Source: a virus
Reading direction: 5' to 3' (one strand)
DNA length: 64,000 nt
IMG/VR virus record: IMGVR_UViG_3300032770_000022
Coordinates: 1 to 64,000 of that record
Under the pieces are notes generated by a model. That model worked only from the letters and a program-made list of their open reading frames with translations. It ran no database searches and was not told where the DNA came from. Shown one piece after another: positions 35,563 to 58,856 of this stretch. Within the stretch, counting starts at the first letter, position 1. The number at the start of each line of letters is the position of its first letter. The position numbers and the translations under genes were made by a program.

Positions 35563-35646
35563 TCCGAGATGCGCGCGACGGTCGCGCTCATGCCTGGCCG
35601 GGAGGCGGTTCCCGGTGTCGTTAGTGGACGTTTCCTCCCAACCTTG

Positions 35647-35694
35647 AGCGGCGCGCGTCTCTCTGACCCCTTCCTTGGTGCGCCGCTTTCTTTT
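35647..35694 (+). terminator. Terminator after head morphogenesis gene
   Basis: AGCGGCGC (35647-35654) pairs with GCGCCGCT (35680-35687) and runs into TTCTTTT. It lies between the head protein and the ATG at 35710, which supports that ATG rather than an upstream in-frame codon at 35569. Confidence 0.65.
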
Positions 35695-35709
35695 CCCCCC
35701 GGAGACGCG

Positions 35710-37659
35710 ATGCCCGGCTTCGAGCTGATGTCGGGCGTGGGGGAGGACGACGCTGCGGCGGCCGAGCGCATCATCGACGCGCGGCTGGCAGAGCTAGGAG
35801 CGAGGTATCCGCGCCTGATCGCGCTGCTGGGCGGCACGCACATACGGCTCGCGCCTGGGGCGTTGCTTGAGGATAGCTGGCACGGCCAGAGCGACCCGGG
35901 CCGCATCACGCTGCCGGTGGAGCTGAAACAGGACCGATCGCCCGCGTCGCCCGGCGGCAGGCGCGTCGAGTTCGAACCGTCCCTGCTCGGTGTGCTGGAC
36001 CACGAGATCGGCCATGAGATCGAGGCCGGGTTCGCTAAGGCAGCGGGCCTGGATATCGGCGAGTTGTTCGCGCGCCAGGACAGGGCGGCGATCGAGACCG
36101 GTCTCTCGCCCTACGCGGCGCAGGACGAGCACGAGTGGTTCGCGGAAAGTCTCGCCGCATGGCTGCATCCCGAGCGCCCGGCGGTGCACTTCGACCTGGA
36201 CCCCGATCTCGCGCAGGCGTTCCAGCGCATCCTGACGACGCGCGGCGCGCACGACGCATCGTGGTGGACGTATCAAGCATCATCGCCGACTCCATCGTGG
36301 GAAGAAGCAATCGCCGCCGGAGCGTTCAAAGGCAGCAAGTCTGAATGGGAAAGCCTGTCTCCCGGCATGCGCCGCGAGATATTGCGGACCTGGAAACGGA
36401 AAGCCGACAGCGCCGGCCTGATCACGGTGGACGACGGCGAGATCACGCCTCACGTCGAGAAGCACGAGGCGGACTACACGAACACGGGCGACGTGGAGCA
36501 TTGCCGGCTGTGCGAGTTCTGGCGGCCGCCCGATGCGTGCGCGCTGGTGATCGGCACGATCAGCCCGGTCGGCTGGTGCAAGTTTTTCCAATGGCCCGAC
36601 GGGCGGGCCGACACCGCAGGCGAGGCAGGCGACGATCCGGCGCAGCCGCTGGTCCGTGGCGCGGGCATGCTGCTGATCCATCACGGCGACGGCGGCGACC
36701 GCGTGCTGTTTGTGCTCAACAGGGAGCGCGGCACCTGGGAATTTCCCGGCGGCGCCATCGAGGGCGACGAGACCGCCGAGGAAGCGGCCAAGCGGGAGAC
36801 GCTGGAGGAAGTCGGCGAGATACCCTACGGCAGCGTGTCGCTGATGCTGCGCGACCGCATGACCGGCGTGGACTACTCGACGTTCATGGCGCAGGCGACG
36901 GGCACGCCCGAGCCGACGCTGAGCGACGAGCACACGGCCTGGAAGTGGGCCGCGCCGGGAGAACCGCCCGAGCCGCTGCATCCCGGCGTGCGCCTCGCCC
37001 TGGCCCGCCTGGGCATGAACGAACTAGACCTCGCGCGGGCGATCGCGTCGGGCGAGTACTCGAGTCCGCAGCAGTTCGAGAACATCTGGCTCTATGCGCT
37101 GCGCATCACCGGCACCGGGATCAGCTACCGGCCCGAGTTGAGTGAATTCGTCTGGCGCGATCCAAAGCTCTATCTCAATGCGGACTTCCTCGCACGCTGC
37201 AACGGCCTGGCCGTCATCTGGCAGCATCCGCCGGGGGAAAGCCTGACGCAGGACGAGTACGAGAACCGCGTGCTGGGCGCGATCATGCTGCCCTACGTCG
37301 CTGGCGACGAGGTGTGGGGCATCGCGAAGATTTACGACCAGGACGCGGCGCTGATGATGCTCAACCAGCAGCTATCGACCTCGCCAGCTGTCGTGTTCCG
37401 TGATCCTGGCGCGAATAAAATCCGCAAATTAACTGGCGGCAAGCATTTACTAATCGAGGCGGAGCCGTCACTCTTGGACCATCTCGCGATCTGTGGCTTG
37501 GGCGTATGGGACAAGGGCGGCAGCCCGACCGGCGTCGCTGTGGGCGAAGCAGAGATGGCAGATGGCCATATCGAGGTTCCAGATCGAGCGGACGCAATTG
37601 CCGAACTGAACCGTGCAATTGCTTGGATGGACCTCACAAGGGTCACGTCCGCGCTCTGA
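35710..37659 (+). CDS. Metallopeptidase-like, Cys-cluster, Nudix and DUF2213 prohead-protease fusion
   Basis: 649 residues, four parts. (a) HEIGHEIEAGF at 98-108 with downstream DEHEWFAESLAAWL: zincin-like peptidase signature. (b) Cys265, Cys268, Cys277 and Cys290 in a CxxC...C...GWC cluster like HiPIP-type iron-sulfur sites. (c) Complete Nudix box GGAIEGDETAEEAAKRET-LEEVG with Gly348, Glu354, Arg362, Glu363, Glu366 and Glu367. (d) From about 440, ITGTGISYRPELSEFVWRDP and CNGLAVIWQHPPGESL, DUF2213, a prohead-protease family. Known Nudix enzymes hydrolyse nucleoside diphosphate-linked compounds. Such a fusion is unusual; role in head maturation is inferred from position. The last ~90 codons are more AT-rich. 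Confidence 0.75.
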   Translation: MPGFELMSGVGEDDAAAAERIIDARLAELGARYPRLIALLGGTHIRLAPGALLEDSWHGQSDPGRITLPVELKQDRSPASPGGRRVEFEPSLLGVLDHEIGHEIEAGFAKAAGLDIGELFARQDRAAIETGLSPYAAQDEHEWFAESLAAWLHPERPAVHFDLDPDLAQAFQRILTTRGAHDASWWTYQASSPTPSWEEAIAAGAFKGSKSEWESLSPGMRREILRTWKRKADSAGLITVDDGEITPHVEKHEADYTNTGDVEHCRLCEFWRPPDACALVIGTISPVGWCKFFQWPDGRADTAGEAGDDPAQPLVRGAGMLLIHHGDGGDRVLFVLNRERGTWEFPGGAIEGDETAEEAAKRETLEEVGEIPYGSVSLMLRDRMTGVDYSTFMAQATGTPEPTLSDEHTAWKWAAPGEPPEPLHPGVRLALARLGMNELDLARAIASGEYSSPQQFENIWLYALRITGTGISYRPELSEFVWRDPKLYLNADFLARCNGLAVIWQHPPGESLTQDEYENRVLGAIMLPYVAGDEVWGIAKIYDQDAALMMLNQQLSTSPAVVFRDPGANKIRKLTGGKHLLIEAEPSLLDHLAICGLGVWDKGGSPTGVAVGEAEMADGHIEVPDRADAIAELNRAIAWMDLTRVTSAL

Positions 37660-48399: not shown

Positions 48400-48903
48400 A
48401 TGGATACGGAATTCATCGAGTTGGACCTGCGCCGTCCGATGCGTGTCGGAGGCGCGGCACAGGTGTCACCGACCAAGCTGCTGCTCACCGTAACCACCGG
48501 ATCAGAGCAGCCGGGATATACTGGCGCTTTGCAGGTATCGCTGGATGGCACGAGGTTTGTGCCTGGCTCATCGCTTGTGACCGACCGCGCCTCGACCGAT
48601 CCGACGATCTGGGCAGCACTCGAAGCCGAGAACGCCAGTCTGCGCGCGGAGGTGCGCGAGATCGCTGTCAAGCTCGCGGACGCGGAGAACCGCATATCGG
48701 CGATCGAGCAGGGCGCGGTCGTCGAGGGCGAGAAGACCGAAAGAAGCCCCGTCGATACCGTCGTGGAAAGCCTGACGAGGGGCGAGGTCAGCAGACCCGA
48801 CAAGCAGAGGCTTCGCGGCGCGCTCGACAAGGCGGACGCACCCGCGACCGGCCGCGCGGCCTCGGATCAGGCGCTCGGGCGCATAGCCGGAAAATCGTGG
48901 TGA
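48400..48903 (+). CDS. Tail assembly accessory protein
   Basis: 167 residues from the ATG at 48400, preceded by AGGAGGTG. N-terminal beta region (FIELDLRRPMRVGGAAQVS), then a coiled coil (ALEAENASLRAEVREIAVKLADAENRISAIEQG) and a charged tail. Lies between tube and chaperone; possibly a tube-associated or chaperone-like protein. Not recognised. Confidence 0.55.
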   Translation: MDTEFIELDLRRPMRVGGAAQVSPTKLLLTVTTGSEQPGYTGALQVSLDGTRFVPGSSLVTDRASTDPTIWAALEAENASLRAEVREIAVKLADAENRISAIEQGAVVEGEKTERSPVDTVVESLTRGEVSRPDKQRLRGALDKADAPATGRAASDQALGRIAGKSW

Positions 48904-49565
48904 CCATCCGCATCGACGAGCAGCTCAACCTCGTGTTGCCGATCGACCGCTCGGACGGCGCGGTGATCTGGCTCCATGCGGCGCCCATCTCGCGCGAGGT
49001 ATTCCAGCAGCACTGGCTCGTGCTGAGCAAGACGTTCATGGGCATGGTCGCGCACGAATTGACGGGACTGCCGCAACTGTGCGGCAACATGCTGCGGCAG
49101 ATGGCCGAGAGTCTGAACGTGTGGGACGGGCCGGCGGGCGTGTCGATGACGCTGCTGCCAGAGATCAGGCGGCTCGCGAACGTCGTGGTGCCGGGAGGGA
49201 CGAACGGAGCGTCAGGCTGGCAGCCTATGCCGCTGGACGAAGCGGTGCGGCGCAAGATGGTGGACCCCGAGGACGCGGACCAGATCGAGGGCGTGTTGAT
49301 TTTTTTTTCGGCCGCATGGCGGTTGCTGCCTCGGAAGGACCGGGCGACGCGGACGGCTGGCGCTGTGAGTGTTCTGGATGCTTCGATCAGATCGCAACCC
49401 TTGTCGGACTTCGTCGCTTCTTTGCCGACCTTGACCGAGACCGCCAGTACTGGCGCGACGCCCCCGGCTCCGTCGTCGCCACCGTCCTGGATTGGGGTGC
49501 CGGGCCCGGTTTCGAGCAGTGCTTCTGGGAGCGCGACACCAGCTTTCCCTGGCGTTCCGCACTAG
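48900..49565 (+). CDS. Tail assembly chaperone, zero-frame product
   Basis: 221 residues from the GTG at 48900 (GTGA overlap). QLNLVLPIDRSDGAVIWLHAAPISREVF, LSKTFMGMVAHELTGLP, then VLIFFSAAWRLLPRKDRA and SLPTLTETAS follow the pattern of tail chaperones encoded between tube and tape measure. In the middle (49300-49308) a run of nine T residues read as ATT TTT TTT TCG is a canonical -1 slippery site. The zero frame ends at 49565 with a Ser/Pro-rich tail. Confidence 0.65.
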   Translation: MTIRIDEQLNLVLPIDRSDGAVIWLHAAPISREVFQQHWLVLSKTFMGMVAHELTGLPQLCGNMLRQMAESLNVWDGPAGVSMTLLPEIRRLANVVVPGGTNGASGWQPMPLDEAVRRKMVDPEDADQIEGVLIFFSAAWRLLPRKDRATRTAGAVSVLDASIRSQPLSDFVASLPTLTETASTGATPPAPSSPPSWIGVPGPVSSSASGSATPAFPGVPH

Positions 49566-49603
49566 AGTTCCGCCAGCGCAATCAGCAGCCTCGCGCTCTA
49601 TAA
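48900..49603 (+). CDS. Tail assembly chaperone, putative -1 frameshift product
   Basis: If the ribosome slips back one base at TTTTTTT (49301-49307) it continues FGRMAVAASEGPGDADGWRCE and on to 49603, adding about 98 residues with GCFDQIATLVGLRRFF, WRDAPGSVVATVLDWG and ERDTSFPWRSALEF. Both frames after the site look coding. This gives the G/GT arrangement known from many tailed phages. A homopolymer error in the sequence would be the alternative explanation. Confidence 0.55.
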
Positions 49604-49618
49604 CGACAGGAGGCCGCC

Positions 49619-51559
49619 ATCGCACTTAGGTCGATCCTCAACATTGATGTGAATAGCGCCGGCTTCGACGCGTTCGTCCGCAAGTTCCAGGAGTTCCAGA
49701 AGGCAGGGCGGACGGTCATGCCGACCGGCCCTGGCGGCATCGGCGGCGGGGCTATGGGCCAGTCCAAGACGGCGATGCAGGAGCAGTTGACGTTCGCCGA
49801 TCGGCTGAACCGGGCGAACAGGCAACTGCTGCGTGACTGGCAGGGCATCCGAGACGCGTCCGCGCTAGTCGTGCGGCACGTCAAGGAGATCGGCAGCACG
49901 CTGCTGCACATGGGCGCGCTGTCGGGGCTGATAGGCGGCCTCGCGACCGGCTTTGGGTTCCTCGGCATGGATATGCTGGGGCGCGGGACGGCGGGCTACA
50001 GGCGCAGCGCGCTGGGCCTCGGCACGTCCATAGGCGGCATGCGGGCGTTCGGCCTCGACTTCGGCCGGTTCGTCGATACAGGTTCCGTGCTGGGCGGCGT
50101 GTCGGCGGCGATGCGCGATCCGATGAAGCGCACGGCGCTGCTGTCGCTCGGCATCAACCCAGCCGAGGGAGAGGATGCCGCTTCGGTGGCGGTGCGCACG
50201 CTGGAGCGCACGCAGCAACTCGCCAAGCAGACGCCGGAGTCGATGCTGGGCACACTGCTGCAATCGCGGCGGCTCGGCGAACTCGGCATCTCGCTGCAAG
50301 ACCTGACGCGGCTGCGCAACATGTCGCCGGAGGAACTGCGACAGCAAGGCGCGCAATTCCGGACGGACGTCACCAATCGCGGCCTCAACCTGACCGACGA
50401 TCAAGCGAAGAAGTGGCAGCAGTTCATCACGACGATCGACCGGGCGAGGATGACGGTCGAGACCTCGTTCATCCGTGGCCTGACGCCGCTCGCGCCCGCG
50501 TTGGAGAAATTGTCGCAGGCGTTCAGTAAGACGATCCAGGCGCTGCTGTCCAAGCCGGAACTCCAGCAATGGATCGACAACCTCGCGGAAGGCATCAAGC
50601 GGTTCGGCGACTACGTGGCGACGCCGGCCTTCCAGAAGGACGTGGAAGATTTCGCGACCGCCGTCGGCCGCATGGCGAAGGCGCTTGTCAGCGGCGTCGA
50701 GTGGATCGCCGAGAAGCTGGGAGCGCTGGGCATCGGCGTCGGCGGGAATGCGGGCAGCAAGACTGGACCAGCCGCTCCTGCCGCACCTTTGGGGCGCGGC
50801 GTGCAGCCCGGCGCGGTGCCGATCCCAGGCACCGGATCGATCTTCGGCAATCAGCAGGATACGCTGATGCGCAACCCGGACGGGACGATCGTCAACCCGT
50901 CCACCGGCGCGCTCTACCGGCAGCTTCCGGGCGGCGAGTTCCAGTGGCTCGGCACCTATGCTCCGGCGCAGAGGTCGTCGTTCATGTCGCCCGGCCTGCG
51001 CGGCGGCATCCAGCCGGCATCGTTCGCGGTGCCGATGACGGACCGGACGAAAGAGGCGCACGATTATTTCACGAGGCTCGGCTACAGTGAGATCGCGACG
51101 GCGGGGCTGCTCGCGAACATCAAGGGCGAGAGCGGATTCAATCCGGCGGCGTTCAATCCCGAGGGCGGCGGCCAGGGCGCGCAGGGCATCATGCAGTGGC
51201 GCGGCCCGCGCATCGACCAGTTCCGCCGCATGTTCGGCCACGATCCCAGCCAGGGCACGTTCGAGGAGCAGCTTGCGTTCACGCAGTGGGAACTGACGCA
51301 CACGGAGAAGGGCACGGCCTACGCGCTGTTCGGCGCGCGCACGGCGGCCGAGGCGGCGAAGGAAGTGCTGCGGCTCTACAGCCGGCCGGACCCGATGGGA
51401 CAGCAGCCGCTGGGCGCACAGCGCGGCGGATGGGCGGACCAGTACTACCGCAACTTCACCGGCGTTCCCTCTGGCCCGCAGAAGGCGACGAACGTCATCA
51501 TCACGGTCAGGAACGAGACGGGCGGCAACGCGATAACCTCCATTGCCCAGGTCGCGTGA
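49619..51559 (+). CDS. Tape measure protein with C-terminal tail lysozyme
   Basis: 646 residues if started at the ATC at 49619, which lies five bases after a perfect AGGAGG; the first GTG (49649) lacks a ribosome site and would cut off RSILNIDV, part of the usual start of tape measures. Residues about 100-125 hold a hydrophobic segment (MGALSGLIGGLATGFGFLGMDML). The C-terminus (about 475-620: YFTRLGYSEIATAGLLANIKGESGF, GAQGIMQWRG, FEEQLAFTQWEL) is a tail-lysozyme domain of the Phage_lysozyme2 type for local wall digestion during injection. 646 residues imply a short-to-medium tail. Confidence 0.75.
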   Translation: MALRSILNIDVNSAGFDAFVRKFQEFQKAGRTVMPTGPGGIGGGAMGQSKTAMQEQLTFADRLNRANRQLLRDWQGIRDASALVVRHVKEIGSTLLHMGALSGLIGGLATGFGFLGMDMLGRGTAGYRRSALGLGTSIGGMRAFGLDFGRFVDTGSVLGGVSAAMRDPMKRTALLSLGINPAEGEDAASVAVRTLERTQQLAKQTPESMLGTLLQSRRLGELGISLQDLTRLRNMSPEELRQQGAQFRTDVTNRGLNLTDDQAKKWQQFITTIDRARMTVETSFIRGLTPLAPALEKLSQAFSKTIQALLSKPELQQWIDNLAEGIKRFGDYVATPAFQKDVEDFATAVGRMAKALVSGVEWIAEKLGALGIGVGGNAGSKTGPAAPAAPLGRGVQPGAVPIPGTGSIFGNQQDTLMRNPDGTIVNPSTGALYRQLPGGEFQWLGTYAPAQRSSFMSPGLRGGIQPASFAVPMTDRTKEAHDYFTRLGYSEIATAGLLANIKGESGFNPAAFNPEGGGQGAQGIMQWRGPRIDQFRRMFGHDPSQGTFEEQLAFTQWELTHTEKGTAYALFGARTAAEAAKEVLRLYSRPDPMGQQPLGAQRGGWADQYYRNFTGVPSGPQKATNVIITVRNETGGNAITSIAQVA

Positions 51560-51583
51560 GATAGGATACAGTCGTCATAGACC

Positions 51584-51648
51584 GGTTCGAAGCCCGTCCG
51601 TGAGGACCGGCGGAGACTTGCGGGTTCGAATCCCGTCGCCTTGCACCA
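51584..51648 (+). other. Tandem tRNA T-arm-like sequences (tRNA 3'-end remnant)
   Basis: GGTTCGAAGCCCGTC (51584-51598) and GGTTCGAATCCCGTC (51623-51637) are two T-loop-like copies 39 nt apart; the second is followed by GCCTTGCACCA ending in CCA at 51648. No matching 5' acceptor or anticodon arm is found upstream, and the acceptor spacing is off by one base, so this is not a complete tRNA. Gap 51560-52011 contains this, a promoter at 51918 and otherwise nothing I can assign. Confidence 0.35.
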
Positions 51649-51917
51649 AAAAGCCTCGGCTGGATGATGCAGTGAGGAAGCGGGGCGCGGCTGCGTGAGG
51701 GACCAGCGCCGGTTGCGAAATTCCTCGGGGCCGGGATACGCGCCCCACATCGAGCGGGCCGGGGCGATCTCCATCGACAGGGAGCAACGACCCCGGCCAC
51801 CCTTCCCAGAATCCCCCTACGATCGCCGTACACGGCGTCCAGCTTTTCCCGGTAGGGTAACAGCGGCCAGACCGCGCATCGGCGCCAGCGCTCGTTCTAT
51901 CGCGGCGCCGGGCCTGT

Positions 51918-51989
51918 TTGGGAGCCAAGGGCACTTGCTGTATGATACGGGACCGGACGGCGCTTCCAACGCCGATCCGATCCCTGACC
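51918..51989 (+). promoter_or_regulatory. Promoter and hairpin leader of GIY-YIG gene 2
   Basis: TTGGGA (51918-51923), 17-nt spacer, TATGAT (51941-51946). The leader then folds as GGGA-CGGA-GGCG / CGCC-TCCG-TCCC around CTTCCAA (about 51950-51985). Same design as before GIY-YIG gene 1 although the sequences differ. Confidence 0.5.
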
Positions 51990-52011
51990 TGATCGCTACT
52001 GAGGGGCGACC

Positions 52012-52803
52012 ATGGCTGCCGTCAAAGATATACTCCGCCGGTTCTATGTCTACATCATCTTCCGATGGGACGGCTCACCATGCTACGTCGGCAAGGGCAG
52101 AGGCGATCGGTGGCTGAGACATGCCAAGAATAGCACCAATCGCCACCTCGGGCGCATATATGCTCAAGCTGGCGGAACCCTTCCGATCATCAAAGTGCGC
52201 GAAGGGCTGACGCACGCCGAAGCATGCGAAACCGAGATTGCTTTGATTATCGCGATTGGACGTGCCGACTTGGGACGTGGCCCTCTGGTGAATTTCACCG
52301 ATGGAGGAGAGGGTATGCTTGGCCATCGTCCATCCCCGGAGACATGCGAGAAGATTGCGTCGAGCCATAGAGGCCGACCGCTTTCCGCAGAACACAAAGC
52401 GCAGATCGGCGAGACCCAGCGGGGTAAGCCAAAACCTGACGGACACGGCGCCAAAGTAGCTGCTGCGCTTATCGGCCATGTCATATCAGAAGCGACTCGG
52501 GCCAAGATCGGTGCGGCAAATCGTGGCCAGAAGCGATCTCCTGAACAGGTCGAGCGGATGCGTATCGTCGCATCATCACCTGACGTAGTTGCAAGACTGC
52601 GTGCTGCCAATCTCGGGAAGAGAGCAACGCCCGAAGCGCGTGCCAAAATGATCGCATCGCGGAAAGGCAAGCCAAGCCCGAAACCACCTGGGTTCGGAGC
52701 CACAGTCAGCGCAGCAATACGCAGAAGGAAGTTATTAGCGCAGTGCCGCGAGGGGGCCGGCGCTGGACCATTGTTCGACTATCGACCGGAATCTGATCAA
52801 TGA
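52012..52803 (+). CDS. GIY-YIG homing endonuclease 2
   Basis: 263 residues. RRFYVYIIF and PCYVGKGRGDRW are the GIY/YIG elements; KVREGLTHAEACETEIALI carries the catalytic Arg and Glu; NFTDGGEGMLGHRPSPETCEKIASSHRG, PLSAEHKAQIGETQRGKPK and SEATRAKIGAANRGQKRSPEQ are three or more NUMOD3-like DNA-binding repeats. Inserted between tape measure and a tail gene, ending in an overlap with the latter. Confidence 0.88.
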   Translation: MAAVKDILRRFYVYIIFRWDGSPCYVGKGRGDRWLRHAKNSTNRHLGRIYAQAGGTLPIIKVREGLTHAEACETEIALIIAIGRADLGRGPLVNFTDGGEGMLGHRPSPETCEKIASSHRGRPLSAEHKAQIGETQRGKPKPDGHGAKVAAALIGHVISEATRAKIGAANRGQKRSPEQVERMRIVASSPDVVARLRAANLGKRATPEARAKMIASRKGKPSPKPPGFGATVSAAIRRRKLLAQCREGAGAGPLFDYRPESDQ

Positions 52804-53540
52804 GTGGCTATTCGCCTGGGCTTTTTGCCTATCGTATGGGATTTCAATTGTGTCCAATTTTGTTGACAGGCGGCATCGCTGATTTCGTCCCCGGTAACAT
52901 CCTGCCGATCACGCTGTTCACCGAGGCGCTGAACCTCGCCTTCACCGGCGGCTCGATCGGGCCGGATGACTTCTTCGCCAATTACCAGCCGCAGCCGGGC
53001 TCGACCATCATCGACAACCAGGTGGCGGTCTACCCCTTCGCCAACCAGGCGGTCGCGGCCAACGCGCAGATCGCCCAGCCGCTCCAGATCAGCCTGCGCA
53101 TGATATGCCCGGTGCGCGATCCCGGAGGCTACGCGGCGAAGCTGGTGACGATGATCGCGCTGCAATCCACGCTCGACCAGCACAACCGAAGCGCTGGCAC
53201 CTACACGATCGCGACGCCGAGCTTCTTCTACACCGACTGCATCATGACCGGGATGCGCGACATCTCCGGGGCCGAGAGCCATCAGGCGCAGTGGGTGTGG
53301 CAACTGGATTTCCTCAAGCCGCTGCTGACGCTCGAGCAGGCGCAGCAGGCGCAGAACTCGCTGATGGCCAAGCTGACCTCCGGGCAGCAGACTTCGGACA
53401 ACCCTTCGTGGTCGGGCGCCGACGCGCAGGTCGGATCGATCTCGCCGCTCGCGCCCACGCAGCCCGCCGCCTCGGCGGCCGGTTCATCCATCGTCGGGCC
53501 GCAGAACGCATTCACGCCATTTGGCGGCGCGTCGCCTTGA
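52800..53540 (+). CDS. Tail/baseplate protein
   Basis: 246 residues. GFQLCPILLTGGIADFVPGNILPITLF, GSIGPDDFFANYQPQPGSTIIDNQVAVYPF and IMTGMRDISGAESHQAQWVWQLDFLKPLLT match a conserved contractile-tail protein of phages of this type; the last 45 residues are Ser/Ala-rich. Probably part of the baseplate-tube junction. The start overlaps the homing gene stop. Confidence 0.6.
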   Translation: MSGYSPGLFAYRMGFQLCPILLTGGIADFVPGNILPITLFTEALNLAFTGGSIGPDDFFANYQPQPGSTIIDNQVAVYPFANQAVAANAQIAQPLQISLRMICPVRDPGGYAAKLVTMIALQSTLDQHNRSAGTYTIATPSFFYTDCIMTGMRDISGAESHQAQWVWQLDFLKPLLTLEQAQQAQNSLMAKLTSGQQTSDNPSWSGADAQVGSISPLAPTQPAASAAGSSIVGPQNAFTPFGGASP

Positions 53541-53818
53541 CCACCTTCATCCCGTTCGTCCCGCAACCCTCGCCGCGCCGCCCGCCGTTCGCCTTCACGG
53601 CGACGCTGGACGGGCAGACCTATCAGATCAACGCTCGTTGGAATGCGTTCGGGCTGCGCTGGTATCTTGTCTGCAATGACTCGTCGGGCAACCTGCTGTT
53701 CAACCTGCCCATGATCGGCTCGCCGGACACGGGTGACATCAACATCGTCAAGGGCTACTTTCTGGTGAGCACGCTCGTGTTTCGCGTGTCCACACAGACT
53801 TTTGAAATAAACCCCTAG
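53537..53818 (+). CDS. DUF6983-like baseplate-region protein
   Basis: 93 residues from a TTG that overlaps the upstream stop (TTGA). FIPFVPQPSPRRPPFAFTATLDGQTYQINARWNAFGLRWYL fits the small phage family DUF6983, with beta strands and a conserved W-N-x-x-G-x-R-W-Y. Located in the baseplate gene block as in related phages. Confidence 0.6.
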   Translation: MTTFIPFVPQPSPRRPPFAFTATLDGQTYQINARWNAFGLRWYLVCNDSSGNLLFNLPMIGSPDTGDINIVKGYFLVSTLVFRVSTQTFEINP

Positions 53819-53834
53819 TCATAGGGAGGTTAAT

Positions 53835-54914
53835 ATAAGGTTTTACCGCATCGAGATGAAATGGCACGACAGCGGCCAGCCGGTGATCTTCCCGTCGCTG
53901 AATGGTTCCGGCATGCCGCCGGGCGTGATCACGTCGCTGCTGCCTGACGGCACGACGAACCCCGCCGCGCTGAACATCGAACTAGACCTGCCGCAGTACT
54001 GGGGCCATACCGGGGGCGGCGACATATCAAGCTATCTGCGCATCTGGGGCCTGTCGCTCCTGGAACTCGGGCAGGCGTTCAATCTCGCAATCCCCACGAG
54101 GGCGGTGGACATCAAGATATTCGGCGGCATGGCTCAGGGCTACCCGCTCGCCGACCCGACGCAGCAGGGCATCATCACCCAAGGTCAGATCAACCAGGCG
54201 TTCGGCAACTGGCTGGGGACGGACATGACGCTGGACATGTACATCCGCCCGCCCGCGTCCGGCTCGGCGTACAACCCGGACAACCCGCTGAACTTCACCT
54301 TCACGTGGTCCACCGGCCAGACGTTGAAGGACGCGATCGCTGCGACGCTCTCCAAGGCGATGCCCGGCGTGCAGCAGAACATCAACGTCAATGCGAACCG
54401 CGTGCCGAACGCGACGAAGACGGGCTACTATGCCTCGTTCAGCCAGTTCGCCACGATGATCCAGGAGATGACGGCCGGCGAACTCGGGTCGGACGACATG
54501 GGCGTGGTGATGGCGCACACAGGATCGGCGGTGAACGTTTACGAGGGCACGCCTGGGCCGCCGCCGACGACCGGCATCACGCAGATCAAGTTCCAGGACC
54601 TGCTCGGGCAGGTGACGTGGGCAGCGCCGAACCAACTGACCGCGAAGCTGGTGATGCGCGGCGACCTCAACATCTCGGACTGGATACAGTTCCCGCAGGG
54701 TCTCGTGGCCACCACGACAGCGAGCGCGCTGCCGGCCTTCGGTGGGACCGGCGCCAATCCGTCGAACAACCTGACGTTCAGCGGCAAGTTCCAGATCGCG
54801 CAGATTCAGCATTGGGGGAATTTTCGCAATCCAGACGCACTTTCGTGGAATACTACCATATGGGCGAATCTACAGCCTCAACAGGGCAGCGGCGCGACTT
54901 CTACGTCTATGTAG
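53835..54914 (+). CDS. Baseplate hub-like protein, probable ATA start
   Basis: 359 residues from ATA at 53835, which lies five bases after GGGAGG; the first ATG (53856) has no ribosome site and would remove a plausible first strand (RFYRIE). GMPPGVITSLLPDGTTNPAALNIELDLP, FGGMAQGYPLADPTQQGIITQGQI and SDWIQFPQGLVATTTASALP look like a T4 gp27/Mu gp44-type hub. The last ~18 codons overlap the start of GIY-YIG gene 3. Confidence 0.6.
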   Translation: MRFYRIEMKWHDSGQPVIFPSLNGSGMPPGVITSLLPDGTTNPAALNIELDLPQYWGHTGGGDISSYLRIWGLSLLELGQAFNLAIPTRAVDIKIFGGMAQGYPLADPTQQGIITQGQINQAFGNWLGTDMTLDMYIRPPASGSAYNPDNPLNFTFTWSTGQTLKDAIAATLSKAMPGVQQNINVNANRVPNATKTGYYASFSQFATMIQEMTAGELGSDDMGVVMAHTGSAVNVYEGTPGPPPTTGITQIKFQDLLGQVTWAAPNQLTAKLVMRGDLNISDWIQFPQGLVATTTASALPAFGGTGANPSNNLTFSGKFQIAQIQHWGNFRNPDALSWNTTIWANLQPQQGSGATSTSM

Positions 54915-55609
54915 TGTTCCGCTTGTCCACCGGCATCCCATGCTATGTCGGCAAGGGATCGGGCGGTCGTGCGAAGGAGTCGGTGACGAAATCGCACAAT
55001 AAAGTCCTGCGCGGAATTCGGCGCAAAGAAGGGGACCTGCCGGTTGTGATAATCCGCGATGGTCTGCTTGAACCACAGGCATTCGAGATTGAGCGCATCA
55101 TGATCGCGCTGATCGGCCGTCGTGATCTCGGAACCGGACCGCTGGTGAACCTGACGGATGGCGGCGAAGGTGTCAGCAATTTCGGACCGGAAACGCGATT
55201 GCGTAAATCGATCGCCGGAAAAAGTCGTAAACATTCTCCCGAAACGCTAGCGAAGATCGCCGAGGCCAGGAAACGATGGGCAGGACACTCAGAAGAAACC
55301 AAGGAATTCCTGCGAGCACTTTGGACGGGCCGCCGACATACTGAAGAAACTCGTGCCAAGATGTCTATATCGCAGAAAAGACGCCCTCTACCCGGCCCGA
55401 TGCCCTTTGCCCAACGCGAAAAAATACGAACGAGCAATCTTGGAGTTCCCCGATCCATAGCGGCGCGGGAGAACATGACAGATGCAAAGCGACAATCTTG
55501 GGCACGTAATCCGGCGCAAGGCATGACCGGCAAACATCATTCCGAGGAGACGCTTGCAAAGATGCGCAAGGCTTGGGAGCGGCGCCGCGAACGTATGGCC
55601 ACCTCCTGA
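54860..55609 (+). CDS. GIY-YIG homing endonuclease 3
   Basis: 249 residues from the ATG at 54860, inside the 3' end of the hub gene. DFYVYVVF and PCYVGKGSGGRA, then IIRDGLLEPQAFEIERIMIALIG; NLTDGGEGVSNFGPETRLRKS and several NUMOD3-like repeats (SPETLAKIAEARKRWAG, SEETKEFLRALWTG, SEETLAKMRKAW). Different from the other two but clearly related. Codon use is AT-richer than flanking genes. Confidence 0.88.
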   Translation: MGESTASTGQRRDFYVYVVFRLSTGIPCYVGKGSGGRAKESVTKSHNKVLRGIRRKEGDLPVVIIRDGLLEPQAFEIERIMIALIGRRDLGTGPLVNLTDGGEGVSNFGPETRLRKSIAGKSRKHSPETLAKIAEARKRWAGHSEETKEFLRALWTGRRHTEETRAKMSISQKRRPLPGPMPFAQREKIRTSNLGVPRSIAARENMTDAKRQSWARNPAQGMTGKHHSEETLAKMRKAWERRRERMATS

Positions 55610-56277
55610 TGGCAGCTTCAAACGCCCAAAAGACTCCGCTCACCCGCGCGCTGCACGACCACACGCGGGGACGGGTCAAGAACGGCATCCAGCTTATCGG
55701 CAAGGCGCTCGCGTGCAGCGTCACGCACATCGTCTCCAGCAAGATCGTCACGGTCAAATGGGAGATCAACGATCCCGACTGGCCTGTGACGCTGCCTCCG
55801 GTGACGATGGCGGTGATGGGCACCGAGTACGTCCGCGAGCCGATCCAGGTCGGCTGCAAGGGGATGGCGGTGCCGGCCGACGTATTCATGGGCGCGATGA
55901 CGGGCCTCGGCTCGGGCGTGGCGACGTTCAACACGCAGCCCAACCTCTCCACCCATGTCTTCATGCCGACCGGCAACACTGGCTTCGCTGCGGTCGATTT
56001 CAACACGCTCTGGCTGTACGGCGCGTCCTCCGGCACGCTGATCAGCGACAGCGCGGCGAACCATGTGACCGTGGCGATCACGTCGACCGGCATCACGATC
56101 AACCTGAACGGGCATACGATGCTGATCGAGAACGGCGACCTGCATGTGACCGGATCGATCATCGGCGGCTTCGGCGGCGGCGATCAGATCGGACTGCTCA
56201 CGCACACGCACACGCAGCCGGCGGACAGCCACGGCGATACCGAGGCGGCGGTCAATCCTCCGACAGCGGGCACATAG
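55609..56277 (+). CDS. Baseplate spike protein (Gp138-like)
   Basis: 222 residues from the ATG at 55609, overlapping the homing gene stop. PPVTMAVMGTEYVREPIQVGCKGMAVPADVFMG is the OB-fold start of Gp138/gpV-like spikes; the C-terminus (NGHTMLIENGDLHVTGSIIGGFGGGDQIGLLTHTH, then a second TH) ends in a His-rich tip that could bind a metal ion, as in membrane-piercing spikes. Confidence 0.72.
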   Translation: MAASNAQKTPLTRALHDHTRGRVKNGIQLIGKALACSVTHIVSSKIVTVKWEINDPDWPVTLPPVTMAVMGTEYVREPIQVGCKGMAVPADVFMGAMTGLGSGVATFNTQPNLSTHVFMPTGNTGFAAVDFNTLWLYGASSGTLISDSAANHVTVAITSTGITINLNGHTMLIENGDLHVTGSIIGGFGGGDQIGLLTHTHTQPADSHGDTEAAVNPPTAGT

Positions 56278-56289
56278 GGGAGATAGACC

Positions 56290-56742
56290 ATTCGTACTTA
56301 TGGGCGCGTCACGGACCCGCAGACCGGCGCGCGGTGGTGGGTCCAGGTCGATCCCGACGCGAACGGCTTTGCTGATTCGGTGTATCTGACCGCGCTCTGC
56401 CAGACGCTCAAGCTGAACCTCGGCGAAAGCCCGTTCTATGGCGATTGGGGCATCCCGGCCAAGGAGAGCGTGCTGACGCAAATCCAGCCGGACTACTATG
56501 TGATGCGCACGCAGCAGCGATATGCGCCGTATTTCTTGTTCCTCGGCGTGCAGAAGCTTCCCGGCACGTTTCCGCCGCTGCCGACGTACGACGTGACGGT
56601 CATCTTCCATACCGGAGCGCAGGACTCGGTGACCGTGATACCCGTCGCTCAGGTGGACGGATTCGGCATCGTGCAGGTGGACGGCCACGGCAACGCCCTA
56701 TCGACGGGCCAGACGAAGACGGGACGATATGTGGCGCAATAG
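56290..56742 (+). CDS. Conserved baseplate-region protein, probable ATT start
   Basis: 150 residues from ATT at 56290, six bases after GGGGAGA. That start gives RTYGRVTDPQTGARWWVQVD, the recognisable N-terminus of a conserved phage baseplate protein; the first GTG/ATG-type codon (56380) would remove 30 residues of it and has no ribosome site. LCQTLKLNLGESPFYGDWGIPA and FAPYF-like RYAPYFLFLGVQ are further landmarks. Function unknown, probably baseplate wedge. Confidence 0.65.
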   Translation: MRTYGRVTDPQTGARWWVQVDPDANGFADSVYLTALCQTLKLNLGESPFYGDWGIPAKESVLTQIQPDYYVMRTQQRYAPYFLFLGVQKLPGTFPPLPTYDVTVIFHTGAQDSVTVIPVAQVDGFGIVQVDGHGNALSTGQTKTGRYVAQ

Positions 56743-58123
56743 GCTGCTCCTGCTCGCTGTGGTGCTGCTGGCATCCCTGCCGGCGATGGCGCAGAACAAC
56801 TGCAATCCGCCGCAATCGCCGTTGGGATCAATGGGGTGCCAGCCAGCCATCCCGCAACCGTTCCAAGGCGGCGACCTGATCCAGGTTTGGCGGCCGACCT
56901 CGTTTCCGAACTCCCTGGGGACGGGCACGCTGACGAACCTGTCCTCATACATCAACCAGCAGTTCGGCCTGGTGCCCACCACGTTCACTTCGCTCCAGAC
57001 ATTCACCGCCTCGCCCACGGGCATCGCGGTGACGCACAACGAGACGATCGGCGGCGCGCTGGTAATGACCGGCAACCAGTCGGCGATCGGCGCGAACCAG
57101 TCGATCCTGACGGAGACATTCGACCAGACTCTGTCGAACTCAACCACTAACCAGACCGTAACCCAGGCTTATCTGACTCACAGCATCAACGGTCAGCAGC
57201 TTTGGAACAACTTCGATGTGATGTATTACAATGTCCCAGGCGGAGACAGCGTTGCCTTCCCAGGCGGGGATATCGTCACCCGGTACGTCTCGGCCATCCA
57301 CCAGACCAATGCACCGAATGTCTCCCAGGAGACATTCATCGCGGCGATGAACGACTTCACATTGCAGCCGTCGTCGGTATCGGGGTCGCTGCTGACCGAA
57401 GAACTCGACATGGCTGTGGCCGGCGCGGACGACAGCCCGCACTATGGCAGGCAAGTGCTCCTGGTATCCGGGGCGAGGGCGCCGGGATACGCAGGAACCG
57501 ATACTGTCATCACGCAAGGCATCAACCTGATCAGCGACGCCAACACGACATTCAAGAACGGTTTCGCGATCAACGCCGCTTTCAATCACGCAGGAATCGA
57601 CTTCACGGCGGCGAGGCCCGTATCGAATGCACCGGCCATACAATTGGCGACGGGCCAGATCATCGGCCTGGACAACGCTGGCAGCGGTGGCATTCCTGTC
57701 GTCAGCATCAAGAGCGACGGCGCAGGCGTCATCAGCAGCACAGGTTTTGGAACCACGGGGGCGGGGCAAATTTCGTTCGCTTCTGGCGCAGGAGGCATAG
57801 GCTACGATTCCGGGACAAACTCGATCGTCACCTACTTCGGTGGAACCAAATACTTCTTCGTCAACTCGGCCAACATAACGGCGACGCCGCTTTTCACCGC
57901 CAGTGCAGGAATGATCTCGGGCGCGAGCATCCTCACGACGGCGGCTGGGGACATTGCGTTGTCCAAGTCCGCCGCATCGAATACGGCGCCTGGGGCTGGC
58001 GGCATGAGGCTGCGAGCGGTGTGCGGGACTTCGGGAACGCTCACTCTTGAGGCGTTCGCCGGCACGTCTTCGACGCCAGTGGCAATCGTCAGCAATGTCG
58101 GAACCGGAGTAACGGGATGCTAG
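56729..58123 (+). CDS. Tail-fibre-like protein with Sec signal peptide
   Basis: 464 residues. The first 21 ([20 protein letters not shown], Ala) form a strong Sec signal with an A-M-A-Q cleavage site. The body is Gly/Ser/Thr/Ala-rich beta sequence with [19 protein letters not shown] (about 98-116), a motif repeated in the 60355 protein. The C-terminus ([29 protein letters not shown]) resembles fibre tips. Export of a fibre-like protein is odd; it could be secreted or form part of an envelope-facing structure. Confidence 0.55.
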
Positions 58124-58338
58124 GTCGTCTTCTGCTGATCGTCGCGCTCCTGGCGCCATCCGTCGCGTTCGCACAGGCACCGGCACCGACTCCGCAGGAC
58201 CAGCAGCAGGCGGAGGCAGCGACGCTCGCGGACCTCGGGGCGCAGATCGTGTCGCTGCGTGCTCAATACCTCGCGGACCAGCGGCGCATCGCGGACCTCG
58301 AAAAGCAGATACCGAAGCCGCCGGACAAACCGAAGTAG
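58117..58338 (+). CDS. Small exported coiled-coil protein
   Basis: 73 residues. [20 protein letters not shown] is a Sec signal with A-F-A-Q cleavage; the mature part is an alpha-helical, Gln/Ala-rich coiled coil ([32 protein letters not shown]). Could be a spanin-like or fibre-associated periplasmic protein. Confidence 0.5.
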
Positions 58339-58347
58339 GAGCATCGC

Positions 58348-58614
58348 ATGGCAACGACTGGCTTCACGCCTCCGAACTCTCCTGTCGGCGACGGCCCTGT
58401 GGTGCGGGGCTTCTCGATCACCAAGAGCGACACGACGGTATTCGCCCCCACGCGCTACATCTTCGTGGGCGGCACCGGAGCGCTCGCGGTCGTGCTTGCT
58501 GGGGACGATACAGTGCTGACGCTGAGCGCGATCCCGGCCGGCACGATGCTGCCGCTCTGCGCGATCAAGGTGATGGCGGCGACGACCGCCACGCTGCTCG
58601 TCGGGCTGTACTGA
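58348..58614 (+). CDS. Small beta-structured virion protein
   Basis: 88 residues ([63 protein letters not shown]). The pattern TRYIxVGGxGxLAV...V.AGTxLP is typical of small phage spike or decoration domains. In the fibre block. Confidence 0.6.
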
Positions 58615-58625
58615 GGGAGGCTGAC

Positions 58626-58856
58626 ATGCCGCTGCTCGGGGGTTCATCGCGCGAAGTCGTGTCCAAGAACATCGAGACCGAGATGAATGCCGGCAAGCCG
58701 CAGCCTCAAGCGGTCGCGATCGCCATGTCCAAGGCCGGGCTGTCGAAGAAGGACGATTGCCCGCAGACGAGCTACATGGACGCGTGCCGACGCGGCGACG
58801 GTGCCGCGATGGCCTCACACTCGGCGGCGATGCTGCGCGGTCGCGTGGTGCGGTAA
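58626..58856 (+). CDS. Small conserved phage protein (DUF-type)
   Basis: 76 residues. [37 protein letters not shown] is the conserved core of a small phage family of unknown function usually encoded near structural genes; the C-terminal half is basic with two cysteines. Confidence 0.6.

Follow-up and report, generated by a model that had tools for sequence, protein, structure and literature searches.

Near-cognate ATC, ATA and ATT codons behind strong Shine-Dalgarno sequences as probable starts of tail genes in an uncultured virus and its relatives

The stretch of DNA considered here (the window, 64,000 nucleotides (nt) long) makes up most of one uncultured 65.1 kb virus record, IMGVR_UViG_3300032770_000022, and carries three tail genes, all on the + strand, that appear to start at ATC, ATA and ATT. 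The first is a tape measure/tail lysozyme gene (49619-51559; phrog_7694/9570, PF18013) with ATC at 49619-49621, preceded by a Shine-Dalgarno sequence (SD), AGGAGG, at 49608-49613 that makes a 6-nt anti-SD match with a 5-nt spacer. The second, a baseplate hub gene (53835-54914; phrog_196, baseplate hub, E 2.8e-13), has ATA at 53835-53837 behind GGGAGG (GGAGGT) at 53825-53830. The third encodes a small baseplate protein (56290-56742) that matches phrog_7986 (E 2.7e-36) from profile position 1; its ATT lies at 56290-56292 and its SD, GGGGAGA with a GGAG core, at 56277-56283, starting on the final base of the upstream TAG. That TAG closes a spike-like (gpV) gene, also on the + strand (55609-56277, start approximate), which has a canonical ATG according to its open reading frame (ORF) and family alignment. 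The small baseplate protein may be gp25-like, a weakly supported assignment: in a Foldseek search with its model (predicted local distance difference test, pLDDT, 68), T4 gp25 ranked first and third with E values of 0.09-0.1 and probabilities of 0.4-0.75, and a PDB sequence search gave no match.

Reading back from each ATH codon (ATA, ATC or ATT; AUH in RNA), an in-frame stop is met one codon before ATT in the baseplate protein gene (ACC ATT), five before ATC in the tape gene (TAA at 49601-49603, then CGA CAG GAG GCC GCC ATC) and eight before ATA in the hub gene (ACC CCT AGT CAT AGG GAG GTT AAT ATA). No ATG, GTG or TTG lies in these intervals in the three window genes, so there is no other place upstream to start. 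Downstream, the first canonical codons are GTG 49649 (10 codons in), ATG 53856 (7) and GTG 56380 (30), and no usable SD was found before any of them. Starting at GTG 56380 would cost 30 residues, including the family-invariant R2, G5, R6, W17, D23 and G26. All but these three of the approximately 50 predicted window genes have a canonical start near the gene beginning. Seven tail genes contain 158 in-frame ATH codons in their interior, none of them preceded by a 6-nt SD match and eight by one of at least 5 nt; the 6-nt match occurs at two of the three window ATH starts. Given this rarity, SD plus ATH at three starts is not a chance pairing. A first-pass annotation of this DNA had proposed near-cognate initiation in the three genes, citing the same SDs at correct spacing, the lack of ATG, GTG or TTG in between, and downstream codons that have no ribosome site and would cut the family N-terminus. 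Direct reading of the SDs and codons, the SD scan and the invariant residues agree on each point, giving the proposal strong support at the sequence level.

A tblastn comparison with homologues in 80 relatives and seven cultured phages places ATG or GTG exactly at the window ATC, ATA and ATT, as the first-pass annotation had suggested checking. Residue 1 of the tape protein aligns with the M or V of homologues (MAxKSIxDIDV), the hub N-terminus IRFYRIE with MRYYRI or VRYYRI (R2 and Y4 being invariant in the family), and IRTYGR of the baseplate protein with MRTYGR-type N-termini. All seven cultured relatives (Shewanella QDWS, Pantoea PdC23, Klebsiella Chronis and Klebsiella RothD, Yersinia 29.18, Rac-SA53 and pPE4) use ATG or GTG, with no ATH among them. 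The nearest relatives of the window (survey loci L302, L303, L305 and L306) have canonical starts at, or no more than two codons from, the three sites, so the ATH states of the window are probably derived. When the tape or hub protein of the window was used by itself to scan viral contigs, no relatives came up, and a scan of genome contigs gave four loci only.

A wider survey covered 300 loci from 162 dereplicated genomes, with the baseplate protein and hub themselves serving to collect the loci; these relatives are mainly high in guanine plus cytosine (GC), and the frequencies given here apply to them. Starts were scored with a modal start-column test, replacing a first family test that produced hundreds of false candidates because it trusted upstream BLAST extension. 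ATT, ATC or ATA starts were found 18 times in 14 of the 162 genomes: nine in the baseplate gene, five in the hub (window ATA, L135 ATT, L229 ATC, L230 ATT, L262 ATC), three in the tape (window ATC, L239 ATT, L281 ATT) and one in the spike (L229 ATT). By family, the ATH share is 5/139 for hub, 9/114 for baseplate and 3/107 for tape, with none in the neighbouring families phrog_7750 (0/116), f11 (0/42) and f13 (0/32); the three tail families together have 17/323 against 2/398 in other families (Fisher p=6.6e-5). When hub, baseplate and tape members have no nearby canonical start, 17 of 19 have ATH at the aligned position, the other two, L221 and L223, being divergent baseplate homologues with non-aligning N-termini. 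At position 1, the 109 unique baseplate homologues have ATG (73), GTG (20), TTG (4), ATT (5), ATC (2) or other odd codons (5), and none of the 14 codons before each ATT or ATC is canonical. The odd codons at position 1 (AAG, AGC, GCT, CTA and TTA) were ruled out as starts by an ATG 1-9 codons upstream. Likewise, the hub ATA of L149 was rejected for a TTG four codons upstream, and the spike ATC of L031 was left out of the count for canonical codons at -11 and +4. In a tail-fibre-like family, L254 has a possible ATT start with an AAGGA SD, a less certain case.

Parsimony requires six changes on the baseplate tree, with at least two forced by well-supported branches, and five on the hub tree, with at least three forced. 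Among these related phages, ATH starts have arisen repeatedly, in each case behind a strong SD and in a small, recurring set of tail genes. Most ATH genomes have one, and two have three each: the window and L229, in which hub ATC, spike ATT and baseplate ATT lie in one tail block (L229:6001-8388). Two such triple genomes occurred in 0 of 20000 permutations. By comparison, a published study of switches to non-AUG starts recorded 2 AUU among approximately 550 (PMC5622118). Setting the present counts against it gives a Fisher p of approximately 1.6e-10, a biased value since that study used annotated starts; its rarity figure understates AUU if annotation pipelines are unable to call that codon.

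Start codon and SD strength vary together across these homologues. Median SD pairing is -10.0 kcal/mol for ATH, -6.6 for TTG, -5.8 for GTG and -5.0 for ATG (ATH vs ATG p=1.5e-8; ATH vs GTG p=5.6e-7), with p-values that treat homologues as independent, which is not fully true. Weak start codons are known to go with stronger SDs (PMC5622118), and the strong SDs seen here look like compensation for a weak codon more than a means of lowering expression. Local RNA folding around the starts did not differ between ATH and ATG. The combination is also retained between diverged sisters: L246 and L247 differ at 68 of 381 nt (~18%) and both keep GGGAGG and ATT, while L015 (ATC) and L040 (ATT) differ at 77 of 345 nt (~22%) and keep AT(C/T) with strong SDs (AAGGAG, GGGAG). 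In another phage, L068 (ATT), comparison by eye with 90%-identical ATG relatives suggests an insertion that brings an SD and leaves a short upstream ATG-AGA-ACG-GAA-TAG frame. Other weak starts are frequent in the same families, with a GTG plus TTG fraction of 0.36 in hub, 0.27 in tape and 0.19 in the baseplate protein vs 0.00-0.03 in phrog_7750, f11 and f13.

Taken together, the position of the codons, the lack of alternatives, homology, SD compensation, recurrence and clustering in two genomes suggest, with a probability of roughly 0.8, that ATC, ATA and ATT are the true translation starts of the tape, hub and baseplate genes. Initiation would use formylmethionine (fMet), with rescue by a strong SD and tolerance in low-copy proteins. 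In such a scheme, the SD would position the 30S subunit on the AUH codon, and initiator fMet-tRNA (anticodon CAU) would pair with the first two bases of AUC, AUA or AUU and mismatch at the third. Such starts would be inefficient, with reduced yield, and opposed by initiation factor 3 (IF3), a weakness that the strong SD may offset. Tape, hub and baseplate proteins are present in low copy number per virion. Probably few copies are needed, and weak starts, GTG and TTG included, might be tolerated or even useful in these genes.

Two observations weigh against this interpretation. Firstly, a sample ascertained through the tail sheath (41 loci, mostly lower GC) contained no ATH among approximately 60 scorable tape, hub and baseplate starts; ATH frequency therefore depends on lineage and ascertainment. 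Secondly, the high-copy sheath itself has a GTG plus TTG fraction of 0.29, from a poorly defined start column and at odds with a simple low-copy rule, so low copy number is best read as a possible reason.

Three further proposals go beyond, or could modify, strong-SD rescue of true ATH starts, and each seems unlikely while retaining some weight. One is that selection has made AUH with a strong SD an IF3-gated control on low-copy tail-tip proteins, repeatedly evolved and concentrated in some genomes, by which hub, tape and baseplate proteins would be made in the right number or late. The first-pass annotation had suggested deliberate low-level or late-phase initiation, which goes beyond what the sequences show. 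The recurrence in separate lineages also fits relaxed selection on low-copy proteins. Another, similarly doubtful, is a general relaxation of start selection in the hosts or phages of this group, through changes in IF3 or initiator tRNA or through a phage factor, making ATH near-neutral genome-wide. The two triple-ATH genomes favour it. Against it, no further window gene lacks a canonical start, most ATH genomes have a single one, and the window has no tRNA genes and hence no candidate phage initiator tRNA. An Rfam search gave no matches. The third is termination-reinitiation at the ATH codon after the upstream gene, perhaps with laxer start checking, which could combine with SD rescue. The upstream stop does lie 5-25 nt before ATH in 11 of 17 cases; however, gaps of 36 and 53 nt occur, and overlap with the upstream stop is commoner for canonical starts of the same genes than for ATH starts. 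In published work, coupling that lacks an SD declines over tens of nt, and reinitiation is still IF3-sensitive (PMC2268962).

The remaining alternatives dispense with ATH initiation and are far less probable. The genes could begin at the first downstream ATG or GTG, leaving the upstream codons untranslated: such codons do exist at 49649, 53856 and 56380, and tape or hub might tolerate being 7-10 residues shorter. This is improbable given the conserved N-terminal residues, the missing SDs and the poor conservation of those codons. The first downstream GTG is not common to sisters in either the L246/L247 or the L015/L040 pair, and the first canonical codon downstream comes only at codon 72 of 123 in L050 and at codon 50 in L229. 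Fusion to the upstream gene product, by readthrough or frameshifting, is less probable again. The window baseplate gene is in frame with the spike gene, and the tape gene with the upstream -1 frame ORF, but two TAG codons lie in frame between spike and baseplate genes, the upstream stop in relatives lies 0 to 53 nt before ATH in no constant frame, and strong SDs would serve no purpose. Sequencing or assembly error of ATG, conceivable for a single uncultured record, is the least credible, as the third base of all three start codons would need to be hit and the ATH state recurs in 13 other genomes, is identical in several contigs of one virus (the L040 group) and interchanges T and C between sisters.

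Near-cognate starts have precedents, and the ATH starts of these tail genes would extend the known infC-type AUU starts. Like them, infC, encoding IF3 (AUU/AUC; E. coli, Streptomyces), has a start that differs from AUG at the third base only; unlike them, it is an autoregulated host gene, whereas the window genes are structural phage genes with no sign of feedback. E. coli pcnB is another gene with a near-cognate start. In T4, baseplate gene 26 also initiates at AUU, but at an internal second start giving a shorter product, not at a sole start. The first-pass annotation named infC as the known bacterial case, which is too narrow given two published examples. Streptococcus thermophilus phage TP-J34 orf28 has an AUU start, resequenced to exclude error (PMC3952083), and is likewise a phage gene, although this case is limited to one gene in one phage group and lacks a series of homologues or a comparison of SDs. 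In Streptomyces, sigR has a GTC start, was mis-annotated by gene callers and is repressed by IF3, as noncanonical starts are (PMC5472188). It shares with the tail genes a noncanonical start in a functional gene that gene callers miss, but is a single stress regulator with another codon type, while the window starts recur in phage tail genes.

Gene callers usually accept only ATG, GTG and TTG, so annotations of proteins of this kind miss the true N-terminus. Although AUH starts are regarded as very rare, approximately 9% of the dereplicated genomes that were sampled by way of these genes have at least one. The natural series of ATG, GTG, TTG and ATH at one aligned site could be used to study the trade-off between SD strength and start codon, as well as any phage use of IF3.

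Other features surround the tail block. Two homing-endonuclease-like genes (52012-52803 and ~54914-55609; NUMOD3 by Pfam, with a GIY-YIG-like N-terminus by eye) interrupt the run of tail genes, one immediately behind tape and the other immediately behind hub. Approximately 2.1 kb of genes (56729-58856), the largest of which was tested and has no PHROG or Pfam match, separate the baseplate protein from baseplate J; the two adjoin in cultured relatives L082, L083 and L085-L087. An insertion thus follows each near-cognate gene. Upstream of the tape gene, overlapping 0 and -1 frame ORFs (48897-49603; phrog_11810, phrog_14324) probably encode a -1 frameshifted tail chaperone, with T_TTC_CCT at 49544-49550, in register, as a candidate frameshift site. 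Further away, 35569-37659 encodes one protein with NUDIX-like, portal-like and phrog_6216 matches.
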